From positions 124,001 through 188,000 of the forward strand of contig NZ_CP124862.1 of assembly GCF_030013905.1 (NCBI RefSeq): 64,000 bases of DNA, written 5' to 3'. The translations under genes were made by a program, and so were the position numbers. This DNA comes from Petroclostridium sp. X23 (GTDB lineage Bacteria; Bacillota; Clostridia; SK-Y3). The notes under the pieces are model-generated. The model saw only the letters and a list, made by a program, of their open reading frames with translations, did no database searches and was not told the origin of the DNA. Each line of letters begins with the position of its first letter. The stretch's first letter is position 1. Shown piece after piece: positions 54,364-57,940 of this stretch.

Positions 54364-55899
54364 ATGAACAGAGTATGCATGTATCTCAGAAAGTCAAGAG
54401 CTGATGAAGAAGCTGAGAAACGAGGCGAAGGCGAGACGCTAGGAAAGCATCGAAAAATGCTCTTGAAATATGCCAACGAAAAAGATATCAATATTATAAA
54501 AATCCGTGAAGAGATCGTGTCCGGTGAAAGTCTTGCCCATCGTCCGGAAATGTTGGAACTGCTGAAGGAAGTTGAGCAGGGCATGTATGATGCTGTCCTA
54601 TGCATGGATGTGGACCGTCTTGGACGCGGCAACATGCAGGAGCAGGGGATCATACTGGAAACCTTTAAGAGTTCCGATACAAAAATCATTACGCCGCGGA
54701 AAATATATGACCTACATGATGAGTTTGATGAAGAATATAGTGAATTTGAAGCTTTTATGGCCAGAAAGGAATTAAAGATCATCAATCGGCGTCTCCAGCG
54801 CGGAAGAATCAGAAGCATCGAGGATGGAAATTATATCTCTAATGTTCCGCCTTTCGGGTATATGATTCATAAGACTAATAAAGACAGAACACTGAAGCCT
54901 CATCCGGAACAAGCGGATGTTATAAAACTAATCTTTGAATTGTACACAAACGGGCTGGGAGGCAGTAAAATCGCTCACAAATTGAATAGCTTGGGGTATA
55001 AAACTTATACAGGCAAAGATTGGTCTTCTGCTTCCATCATTTCAATTGTTAAAAATCCTGTTTATGTTGGAAAGATTACTTGGAGAAAGAAGGAGATAAA
55101 AAAATCTCTTGATCCGAATAAAAGGAAAGATACGCGTCTGAGGGATAAAAGCGAATGGCTTATTGTTGATGGAAAGCATCAACCTCTTGTCTCAAAAGAA
55201 ATATTTGAGAAATCACAGGAGATATTAAGTAATAAATATCATGTTCCTTATCAACGCGAATCTATCATTAAAAATCCGCTGGCAGGGCTTATTAAATGTA
55301 AAAAGTGCGGTGCATCTATGGTATTAAGGCCTTATCCTGATAAAGATGACCAGATCATGTGTTATAATCATTGCGGCAATAAAAGCAGCAAGCTGAAATA
55401 TGTTGAGGAAAGCCTCATTCAGAGTTTAAATGATTGGCTAAAAGGGTATAAAGCGCAATGGGATAAGGGACGCAAAAACAGCCAACCGGATAATGACAAT
55501 ATTCAGGTTTTAAAAAGAAAGATAAGTTATCTGGAAAAAGAGTTTTCAGAATTGGGAAAGCAGAAAGAACGGCTGCATGATTTACTTGAGAGAGGAGTCT
55601 ATTCGATAGATACTTATCTGGAGCGTTCGCAAAACCTCGCTGGGAGGTTTGAAGACATTCGCAGTAATATCGAAAACTGTAAAGATGAACTGCTGTTACA
55701 GTTCGAGCAGGATAAAGTGAAGCAAGATGTTATCCCTAAAGTGCAGAAAGTACTGGATATGTATTATAGTTCTGACGACCCGGCTAAAAAAAATGATTTG
55801 TTAAAGAGTATCCTTGAACGAGCGGAGTATTATAAAAATAAAAGTCAAAGAAATGACCAGTTTACTCTTGTCTTGTATCCCAAACTTCCAAGACAGTAA
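54364..55899 (+). CDS. spoIVCA: Large serine recombinase, SpoIVCA-like
   Basis: A 511-residue large serine recombinase. The catalytic domain has Ser11 in MYLRKSRAD and the motif DRLGRGNMQEQG. A recombinase domain follows (GNYISNVPPFGYMI), then a zinc ribbon (CKKCGASMVLRP, MCYNHCG) and a coiled coil (about 375-450). It converges on, and overlaps, the 3' end of the sigK N-terminal half, exactly as spoIVCA does with spoIVCB in B. subtilis. A sigma-E-like promoter lies upstream and AAGGTGA before the ATG. I infer that it joins the two sigK halves in the mother cell. Confidence 0.92.
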   Translation: MNRVCMYLRKSRADEEAEKRGEGETLGKHRKMLLKYANEKDINIIKIREEIVSGESLAHRPEMLELLKEVEQGMYDAVLCMDVDRLGRGNMQEQGIILETFKSSDTKIITPRKIYDLHDEFDEEYSEFEAFMARKELKIINRRLQRGRIRSIEDGNYISNVPPFGYMIHKTNKDRTLKPHPEQADVIKLIFELYTNGLGGSKIAHKLNSLGYKTYTGKDWSSASIISIVKNPVYVGKITWRKKEIKKSLDPNKRKDTRLRDKSEWLIVDGKHQPLVSKEIFEKSQEILSNKYHVPYQRESIIKNPLAGLIKCKKCGASMVLRPYPDKDDQIMCYNHCGNKSSKLKYVEESLIQSLNDWLKGYKAQWDKGRKNSQPDNDNIQVLKRKISYLEKEFSELGKQKERLHDLLERGVYSIDTYLERSQNLAGRFEDIRSNIENCKDELLLQFEQDKVKQDVIPKVQKVLDMYYSSDDPAKKNDLLKSILERAEYYKNKSQRNDQFTLVLYPKLPRQ

Positions 55900-56374
55900 A
55901 CGGTGCATTTCTTTTTCTTTGTTGATAACCTATAAGGGAGAATTCATTACCTTCTTTATCAACTCCAATGGGATCATGAAGTGAAATTTCATTTTGTGTT
56001 TTTTTGTTAGCTCGAATTGTCATTAGTATTTCATTTTCTATACATCGTGCAGCATACGTGGCCAATCTAGTTCCTTTATCGATATCAAAAGTTGTAATCG
56101 CTTTTATAAGGCCTATTGTACCGATAGATATCAAGTCATCCGTTTCTTTACCCGTCATACTGTATTTTTTAATGATGTGTGCTACTAATCTGAGGTTTCT
56201 TTCTATAAGTATGTTTTTTGCATCTTCATCTCCATTTTTATATTTCTCAAGATACATTTGCTCTTCTTCAGTAGTAAGAGGCTGAGGAAAAGAGTTGTTA
56301 TTCGATACAAAAGACAATAATACAAAAAAGTATTTCAAGATCGTTGGAAAAGCCGTTAATAGGATAGATAACAT
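55862..56374 (-). CDS. sigK: Pro-sigma-K, N-terminal half (spoIVCB part)
   Basis: The first 141 native codons of the mother-cell sigma factor K: a hydrophobic pro-sequence (MLSILLTAFPTILKYFFVLL), SFPQPL, then region 2 with NLRLVAHIIKKY, DDLISIGTIGLIKAI and YAARCIENEIL. The native frame ends in GVDKEGNE at the core at 55943; the next 29 residues come from element sequence. Its promoter at 56411 fits sigma-E and GGGGGTG precedes the ATG. The C-terminal half lies at 57647 on the opposite strand. The pro-sequence shows that this organism uses processed sigma-K, unlike C. difficile. Confidence 0.95.
   Translation of the reverse strand: MLSILLTAFPTILKYFFVLLSFVSNNNSFPQPLTTEEEQMYLEKYKNGDEDAKNILIERNLRLVAHIIKKYSMTGKETDDLISIGTIGLIKAITTFDIDKGTRLATYAARCIENEILMTIRANKKTQNEISLHDPIGVDKEGNEFSLIGYQQRKRNAPFTVLEVWDTRQE
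55920..55952. other. Recombination site at the sigK N-half (attL-like)
   Basis: Read on the minus strand: sigK codons, core AGGTAATGAA (55952-55943), nine bases, and arm ATAGGTTATCAACA (55933-55920). The core and arm match the site at 57635-57661, but in inverted orientation. The symmetric centre of the two arms falls on GA in the core. Confidence 0.8.
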
Positions 56375-56410
56375 TAACTAGACACCCCCGCAAAATAACG
56401 TTTCCCTATA

Positions 56411-56439
56411 ATTATATGAATTAACTGTTATCAATGTGC
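56411..56439 (-). promoter_or_regulatory. Sigma-E-like promoter of sigK N-half
   Basis: Minus strand: GCACATT (56433-56439), a 14-base spacer, then CATATAAT (56411-56418). It has the same spacing as the recombinase promoter and is consistent with sigma-E or sigma-K control. Confidence 0.55.
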
Positions 56440-56469
56440 CTGTCTATAACGGTTTTTTTAAAAGTCTTA

Positions 56470-56624
56470 TATAGGGGGTTGTGAAAAAGTGCTTGATTGG
56501 TCAGTAGCAAAGCATGGGCGGGGCACGGGCCTACAGCTTCCCTAAAAAGCAAGCGCAGCAGTAGGGCCGTCCCCACGCTTCACTCCTTCTGTGCTAAATT
56601 CGACTTTATCACAGTCTCCTAGGA
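56470..56624. repeat. MITE-like element, copy 2
   Basis: A diverged copy of the element at 53804: TTGTGAAAAAGTGCTTGATT at the left, GCATGGGCGGGGC inside, and GACTTTATCACAGTCTCCT at the right. It lies upstream of the sigK N-half, inside the predicted invertible segment. Confidence 0.65.
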
Positions 56625-56697
56625 GAATGTGATAAAAAAGCAAATACAGGGAATAGGACAAAAGGCTCCTTTAATATCATCTATTAGGGGTGGTCTT

Positions 56698-56862: not shown

Positions 56863-56886
56863 GTATAGGTATCATACAGAAAACAA

Positions 56887-56915
56887 GAAACCTGCAAGGT
56901 TGGCCGACCAGCAGG
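56887..56915 (+). terminator. Hairpin after the small protein gene
   Basis: AACCTGC pairs with GCAGGTT around an inner GGTTGGCCGACC hairpin, 25 bases after the stop. The tail is short (TTTG). Confidence 0.5.
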
Positions 56916-57149
56916 TTTGTGAAGAAAAATTTTAGTGTCATTCGGAGAGCATACTCTTGTACACCATTGTAACTCTTTGATACGCCATTGTATCTAAGAA
57001 AAGAGCATGTGCTCCATCAGTAATATTATGGATATTAATATAGAATAATATTCACTGTTTTTCGAAATATAGTAATATTTTAGGGAAAATATATAGATAA
57101 TATTTTGCTGCTAATATTCAATGTTTATTTGAAAATGAGTAGTTAATTG

Positions 57150-57565
57150 ACAATAAAAAGTAAAGAACATAACGATCTACCTTGCACTATCACAGATAAC
57201 TTATTACCCAGCTATGATCTTTCGACCATAACCAAGCAGGTCATTACCTATAATAATGGTTCGTTCGACCATACAAAATACCTACACAGCCATATGCAAC
57301 CTCTCGGCTGCATATAACCGTTTGGCCAAAAGACTTTTCGGCACTCTGCATGATCTTCGCTCGACCCTACATAATAAGTTGGGATCTTATTATAATCATA
57401 TATTTTTCAATACGACTATAATAAAACCTTTCCTTACCATATAGAATCTTCCCTCCGACTGCATACGAGCCAATAAATGACCCGTATGCAATCTTTGGCC
57501 GACCTATATACACCCTTACTCAGAGCATATATAGATCTTGGCTCAATCGTTATGTTCCTTACGCT
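57150..57565 (-). ncRNA. Large structured RNA candidate, about 400 nt
   Basis: No protein frame explains this stretch. GTAAAGAACATAACGAT (57160-57176) is the complement of ATCGTTATGTTCCTTAC (57546-57562) with one mismatch, closing a 400-base domain. Inside are hairpins such as GCATACG/CGTATGC, ATATGCAGCC-GAGA-GGTTGCATAT, GCCGAAAAG/CTTTTGGC and TTATTATA/TTATAATAA. Minus-strand TATGGTCGAA recurs four times with changes. On the minus strand the 3' arm is followed by TTTACTTTTTATTG, so I favour that strand. It is not RNase P or tmRNA by sequence. Large Firmicutes RNAs such as OLE, ROOL or GOLLD should be tested. Confidence 0.6.
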
Positions 57566-57634
57566 ATTAATATGCCCATATGAGATTATTTAATTCATAA
57601 TTTTTTTGTGTAAATTATTCAATTTTTGGATTAA

Positions 57635-57661
57635 TGTTGATAATCTATGAGAGGTAATGAA
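57635..57661. other. Recombination site at the sigK C-half (attR-like)
   Basis: Plus strand: arm TGTTGATAATCTAT (57635-57648), three bases, and core AGGTAATGAA (57652-57661), then sigK codons. The arm is the inverted partner of the arm at 55920-55933 (one mismatch) when the two element halves are joined. Confidence 0.8.
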
Positions 57662-57940
57662 ATATCACTTATTGATATTATCGGCAATGACGGTGAATGC
57701 GTTTTTGAAGAAGTGGAACTAAAAATGCAGGTAAAAAAATTATATAATAAAATGAAGAATATATTAAAAAACAGAGAAAAGATTGTATTGCAGCTGCGGT
57801 ATGGGTTGTTAAACGGTAATGTTAAGACACAAAGAGAGATAGCGCAGATGCTTGGAATATCTCGTTCCTATGTATCAAGAATAGAAAAAAAAGCAATTAA
57901 AAAGCTGGGTAAAGAGTTAAAAACCGAGAATACTTTATAA
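57647..57940 (+). CDS. sigK: Sigma-K, C-terminal half (spoIIIC part)
   Basis: The C-terminal part of sigma-K: GNEISLIDIIGNDGE, then region 4 with REKIVLQLRYGLLNGNVKTQ and the HTH REIAQMLGISRSYVSRIEKK. The ATG at 57647 lies within the recombination arm and has no ribosome site, so it is not translated alone. Native coding starts at the core (GGT AAT GAA at 57653). Joined to codon 141 of the N-half it gives a 236-residue pro-sigma-K in frame, close to the 241 residues in B. subtilis. A terminator follows. Confidence 0.95.
   Translation: MRGNEISLIDIIGNDGECVFEEVELKMQVKKLYNKMKNILKNREKIVLQLRYGLLNGNVKTQREIAQMLGISRSYVSRIEKKAIKKLGKELKTENTL

Follow-up and report, generated by a model that had tools for sequence, protein, structure and literature searches.

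The sporulation sigma factor gene sigK of Petroclostridium sp. X23 is split into two head-to-head halves beside the gene of a large serine integrase, and we consider it rather probable, judging from the sequence, that an inversion of 1.7 kb is how this strain makes σK. The locus lies in a stretch of 64,000 nucleotides (the window; coordinates refer to it unless stated otherwise) which represents bases 124001-188000 of a genome of 5,512,510 bases (5.51 Mb) assembled as a single contig. A preliminary description of this DNA had proposed that recombination at a shared core would join the halves by inversion and not by excision, and as a whole that interpretation is supported by the analysis reported here.

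The two sigK halves and their junction

The N-half starts with an ATG at 56374 and runs on the minus strand down to a core sequence, beyond which its open reading frame (ORF) continues to 55862 with non-sigK codons. On the plus strand, the C-half opens with the same core and its stop codon ends at 57940. The core, AGGTAATGAA, is common to both halves in inverted orientation (55943-55952, minus strand; 57652-57661, plus strand), as had been described. The N-half reads GATAAAGAAGGTAATGAA and then exits sigK into TTCTCCCTTATAGGTTATCAAC, and GTTGATAATCTATGAG precedes the C-half. In an alignment, the N-half ORF diverges from the sequence of its relatives directly after GNE.

When joined at AGGTAATGAA, the halves form an in-frame gene of 711 bp, i.e., 236 amino acids (aa) plus stop, in agreement with the 236-residue product predicted earlier and equal in length to SigK of Petroclostridium xylanilyticum. 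The joined protein is 87% identical to the latter over 100% of the sequence, which was the top match among the best 120 of 7998 relatives, and would represent a pro-σK of normal length. Against the TIGR02846 model (SigK, 227 positions), the N-half matched positions 2-146 with 245 bits and the C-half positions 138-226 with 120 bits; each half alone thus scored below the curated cut-off of 298.65, as expected of a half. The C-half is 94% identical to its counterpart in genome G003 of the same family. BofA (PF07441) is encoded in the genome, which fits a pro-σK in need of processing. A second intact sigK, named in the preliminary description as evidence that would speak against an inversion, was not found when the whole genome was searched with the N-half; the next match was a sigma factor of 52% identity, which was taken for sigE.

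Attachment sites and predicted inversion

The two junctions look like the cognate attachment (att) sites attL and attR of a large serine integrase, placed in inverted orientation (Table 1). Their outer arms, 1.7 kb apart, combine to a palindromic attP, GTTGATAA-N32-TTATCAAC, in which 36 of 48 positions are self-complementary around the centre ATGAAT. None of 20000 random arm pairs placed around the core of the window reached this value (maximum 34), so the pairing of the sites is more than chance. An attP with identical N32 spacing, centre and 36/48 score was present in the sigK element of an Anaerosolibacter metagenome-assembled genome (locus L059). The core of the window contains AATGA, which we take to be the B. 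subtilis skin repeat.

Among large serine integrases, a central dinucleotide that is not self-complementary generally allows one productive alignment of the sites only. The GA at the centre of these sites is such a dinucleotide; only one alignment should therefore be productive here, and its product would be inversion of the DNA between about 55945 and 57659. Of the features of a skin-type sigK element, the locus shows the in-frame join at a common core, a large serine recombinase gene beside one half and cognate attP half-sites. Direct halves that allow excision are absent, the N-half being on the minus and the C-half on the plus strand.

Integrase R and a likely directionality factor

The integrase gene beside the N-half is intact, and its product is referred to as R. 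Four sequences in PDB matched R, the best solved relative being YokA (SprA of SPbeta; 200 bits), with Ser11 of R aligned with the serine of YLRRSR. A SpoIVCA-like recombinase overlapping the N-half had been postulated; the overlap exists, restricted to the non-sigK tail of the N-half ORF, and the enzyme itself, judged by its best solved relative, is nearer to the SprA type than had been proposed. The closest named proteins, 69% identical to R, occur in Marinisporobacter balticus and Crassaminicella profunda, and two plasmid-borne relatives are 52% and 39% identical. No new genome with a match was listed in a further class-wide integrase search of 390 genomes, centred on G025.

Within the predicted invertible segment lies the gene of an acidic 54-aa protein which is likely the directionality factor of R, as suggested by the occurrence of its relatives beside R-type integrases. 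A protein search with its sequence found three sequences. A profile built from seven relatives matched (E < 1e-4) in 16 distinct loci with an R-type integrase, seven of which had served as profile seeds; phage THSA-485A is included, with the match near its integrase. Viral contigs added afterwards gave matches in 5/5 loci; L095 and L099 come from phages already counted, and L096 and L097 contain the same stretch. A tblastn search of phages with the 54-aa protein at E 0.01 yielded no match; the profile did find the relative in THSA-485A.

Short frames with a P-x-I-T/S-x-E-E motif were observed beside other integrases (Table 1). These frames may be distant directionality factors.

In C. difficile the recombinase CD1231 works with CD1234, a small acidic directionality factor of 72 aa (pI 5.5). 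CD1231 alone was reported to recombine attP and attB on a plasmid in both relative orientations, opposed sites giving inversion, and to need CD1234 for attL x attR (PMC5025042). By this rule, the sites described here should invert once R and its factor are made.

Table 1. Positions of features at the sigK locus and of related short frames (window coordinates unless a locus is named).
Feature	Position	Strand	Basis and remarks
Large serine integrase R, 511 aa, intact	54364..55899	+	Resolvase, Recombinase, weak Zn_ribbon_recom match; outside invertible segment
sigK N-half with pro-sequence	55943..56374	-	TIGR02846, alignment with relatives; inside predicted invertible segment
sigK C-half	57652..57940	+	TIGR02846; fixed, outside predicted invertible segment
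attL (sigK side joined to P' arm)	55921..55960	-	Sequence, attP reconstruction; core 55943-55952
attL P' arm TTATCAAC	55921-55928	- (as read)	attP reconstruction
attR (P arm and core joined to sigK C side)	57636..57670	+	Sequence, attP reconstruction; core 57652-57661
attR P arm GTTGATAA	57636-57643	+	attP reconstruction
Predicted invertible segment, GA dinucleotide to GA dinucleotide	55945..57659		Inferred from centre of reconstructed attP
Acidic protein, 54 aa, pI 4.98	56698..56862	+	Profile relatives beside R-type integrases; inside predicted invertible segment
Candidate σE-type promoter of N-half, GCACATT-14-CATATAAT	56375..56474	-	12/14 positions; weak
Miniature inverted-repeat transposable element (MITE) copy with extra inverted terminal repeat (56605-56620 / 56621-56636, end to end)	56470..56636		Inner breakpoint of turned block
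Second MITE copy, left of integrase	53800..53965		Direct to first; 84% identical over 56 aligned bases
BofC-like gene	6093..6794	+	Just upstream of sigK, same strand, in same-family genomes
P-x-I-T/S-x-E-E short frames	L085 6191-6448; L069 9757-9891; L078-L080, L082 about 1156-1388; L086 18309-18458		Weak profile scores, 7-15 bits

Proposed mechanism

In the sporulating mother cell, R and the 54-aa protein as its likely directionality factor would recombine attL with attR. The resulting flip of about 1.7 kb between the inverted sites would turn the N-half, together with its own upstream region, to face the C-half and so rejoin sigK; no circle would be cut out. The reaction is expected to leave a complete sigK that contains attB, and an attP next to the gene of R; both R and attP would remain on the chromosome. 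As no DNA is lost, R alone could recombine attB x attP and so revert an ON state reached too early or by accident, which would make the switch resettable. Besides the geometry of the locus, the pairing of the att arms, the attP layout in common with an ordinary sigK element, the gene of the likely directionality factor and the direct orientation of all 16 comparable loci elsewhere favour this interpretation. We regard as evenly balanced the wider proposition that the locus is a developmental inversion switch of a sigma factor, the first such, with the mother cell assembling sigK without DNA loss and accidental ON states being reset by the integrase alone.

Comparison with other split sigK loci

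A search with the N-half covered 391 genomes of the class, and 226 of them gave a match at 1e-41. The joined protein was searched in 24 genomes, comprising ten with an open frame shorter than 200 aa among the listed N-half matches, six with short or stopped frames, three with integrase hits and five genus or family mates of split-sigK genomes. Both halves were located on one contig in 15 of them (14 direct; one inverted, Petroclostridium sp. X23). In eight genomes (G004, G025, G337, G198, G046, G020, G309, G064), the halves were on different contigs, or one was missing or unclear, and in one (G372) sigK was intact. Including loci L059 and L069, taken from contigs of named genomes and both direct, 16 of 17 split sigK genes with both halves on one contig are direct in this incomplete sample of the class. 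Head-to-head sigK halves, which the preliminary description suggested should be sought in related genomes, were found at none of these 17 loci besides that of the window. In many of the loci compared, other recombinases interrupt sigK near codon 121; the comparison therefore concerns geometry and not descent.

The Anaerosolibacter element at L059 shares insertion point, core (GGCAATGAA), arms and N32 spacing with the window locus. Its integrase, 56% identical to R, lies at the N-half and is convergent with it, and a relative of the 54-aa protein is found towards the C-half. Unlike in the window, the halves of L059 are direct, with about 7 kb between them.

Three further observations were made on sigK in these genomes and in phages. 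In G004, which belongs to the same family (L053 7665-9683), sigK is cut after codon 122 beside an unrelated serine recombinase (22% identical to R); this is an independent element within the family. In G003, codons 1-41 of sigK occur a second time, upstream of the intact gene and adjoining transposase-like DNA (L054 7305-7427). At the ends of phage THSA-485A (L092 3399-3439, L093 1-30), a long palindrome surrounds a short core which on one strand is similar to that of sigK, so that this phage, too, may have used sigK as its integration site.

Origin of the inverted layout

Of the same-family genomes, four gave a sigK hit (G001-G004). In these, sigK or its N part is immediately preceded, on the same strand, by a gene that we presume to be BofC-like, and uvrA-like and penicillin-binding-protein-like genes lie beyond it. 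The counterparts of these genes in the window occupy 464-6794. The orientation relative to the BofC-like gene is kept by the C-half and not by the N-half, which indicates that it is the block of N-half and integrase gene that has turned. Between 7 and 54 kb, the window had nothing in common with the sigK loci of relatives except recombinase-like matches.

Two copies of a MITE-like family (about 155 bp, inverted ends, at least 40 copies in the genome) flank this block. They are direct and diverged, and their inverted likeness extends over only 19-21 bases. The end of one copy with its extra inverted terminal repeat (56605-56636) directly precedes DNA that from 56652 onwards resembles the genome's second element (79% over 130 bases). 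Another stretch is similar to two places in the genome. Since the MITE end abuts the second-element-like DNA, the inner breakpoint is placed at this end. An ordinary sigK element whose N-half and integrase gene turned as one block, with the MITE end at the inner breakpoint, is the likely source of the layout; the turn would have comprised either about 2.5 kb between the MITE copies or about 49 kb from the BofC-like gene to the MITE. A 77-aa reading frame starting in the MITE end is also reported on two short contigs, the longest of 1482 bases. Simple homologous recombination between the MITE copies was considered as the cause of the turn and is a weak candidate, the copies being direct and diverged.

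A two-layer system, with additional flipping of the block at the MITE ends in some cells, which would then carry a small classical excisable element, appears highly improbable. The inverted ends of 19-21 bases on both sides of the block and the end-to-end pair of terminal repeats at 56605-56636 would suit it, but no enzyme for the MITE ends was identified and the copies are diverged.

Evidence weighing against the inversion

Several observations limit or count against the case for σK synthesis by inversion. In its favour, the N-half shows constraint (proportion of non-synonymous differences, pN, 0.11-0.13 vs. that of synonymous differences, pS, 0.71-0.84), as does the C-half (pN 0.03-0.06 vs. 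pS 0.68-0.82), but synonymous sites are near saturation. Given this saturation, and since the turn may be recent, the constraint is no proof that the turned form works; it shows that sigK functioned in the past of the lineage. Promoters were scored with a σE consensus that we assume to be the correct one. The candidate of the N-half was graded weak (4 of 400 random 100-base stretches score equally high), as was that of R (14 of 400 random 200-base stretches), and before the 54-aa gene there was no σE-type promoter, 395 of 400 random stretches scoring as high. With the profile (E < 1e-4), no relative of the 54-aa protein was found in the integrase loci L055 (contig end), L069, L083, L085, L086 and L077-L082, with weak scores in some. 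No resemblance of the protein to a solved directionality factor was seen.

The direct orientation of all 16 comparable loci would also suit a dead relic, i.e., a sigK element broken by the turn of the N-half/integrase block, with sigK no longer assembled and late sporulation lost. The turn may moreover be recent. We consider a relic unlikely, in view of the open frames of both halves, the integrase and the small protein, the intact arms and the identical core. Large serine integrases do recombine opposed sites (PMC5025042), and a turned layout does not by itself imply a dead locus.

The contamination estimate of the genome, 10.19%, is likewise unfavourable, and together with the MITE copies around the block and their at least 40 counterparts in the genome it could point to an assembly error, in which case the true chromosome would be direct and a piece would have been inserted backwards at repeats. 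Such an error is distinctly unlikely. The genome is a single contig, the breakpoint repeats are short and divergent and run in the same direction, matching over about 56 bases only (19-21 in inverted orientation), and a second integrase-bordered gene was assembled in the usual direct form; for these reasons the assembly is probably right at sigK.

This second gene encodes a DegT/DnrJ/EryC1 aminotransferase and is split beside a paralogue of R (56% identical to R). Its N part (genome positions 4500705-4501409) and C part (4566114-4566536) are both on the plus strand, direct and 65 kb apart. Excision during sporulation may rebuild this gene as well. The split gene (L051, L052, L089-L091; 4500705-4566536) is situated in a surface-polysaccharide-like cluster.

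Other features of the window

An Rfam search of 53.5-59.5 kb gave no match up to E = 1, and a tandem repeat scan detected a single short repeat. Between the BofC-like gene and the integrase gene, the region 21567-32684 contains a set of genes that we take to be CRISPR-cas, and an ORF with a repeated peptide that resembles a repeat array.

Relation to known systems and significance

Like in skin of B. subtilis and C. difficile, sigK of strain X23 is split at the att sites of a large serine recombinase. In skin the sites are direct and a circle is excised, whereas the inverted sites of the window, as assembled, preclude excision, and the gene of R is not part of the segment predicted to flip. 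In invertible switches of the Hin/Gin and RecV types, the segment between inverted sites flips and thereby sets the state of a gene; mostly, these switches turn promoters or swap gene ends at random. The sigK locus differs from them in that the coding sequence of a sigma factor would be rebuilt by an integrase and a recombination directionality factor (RDF), in a process predicted to be developmental. SPbeta/spsM, phi3T/kamA and gin/gerE are alike in that sporulation genes are rebuilt by an integrase and an RDF, and, in the case of SPbeta, in the similarity of R to YokA/SprA; int and rdf of SPbeta and phi3T are located at the two ends of the element (PMC6957869, PMC5595907). In contrast to the locus described here, these elements are excised and the interrupted genes are not sigma factors.

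A literature search, whose coverage left out most subscription papers, found no report of an inverting sigK. In the reports consulted, sigK rearrangements all proceed by excision, a final change that suits a cell about to die. If the proposed inversion is true, developmental gene assembly needs no DNA loss, and the locus would represent a naturally occurring equivalent of the inversion switches that have been engineered with integrases. Accidental ON cells would be reset, unlike a cell that has lost its skin circle. The integrase would be retained together with attB and attP on a single chromosome, so that one could test whether excision has been kept for its irreversibility or is a mere leftover of phage origin.

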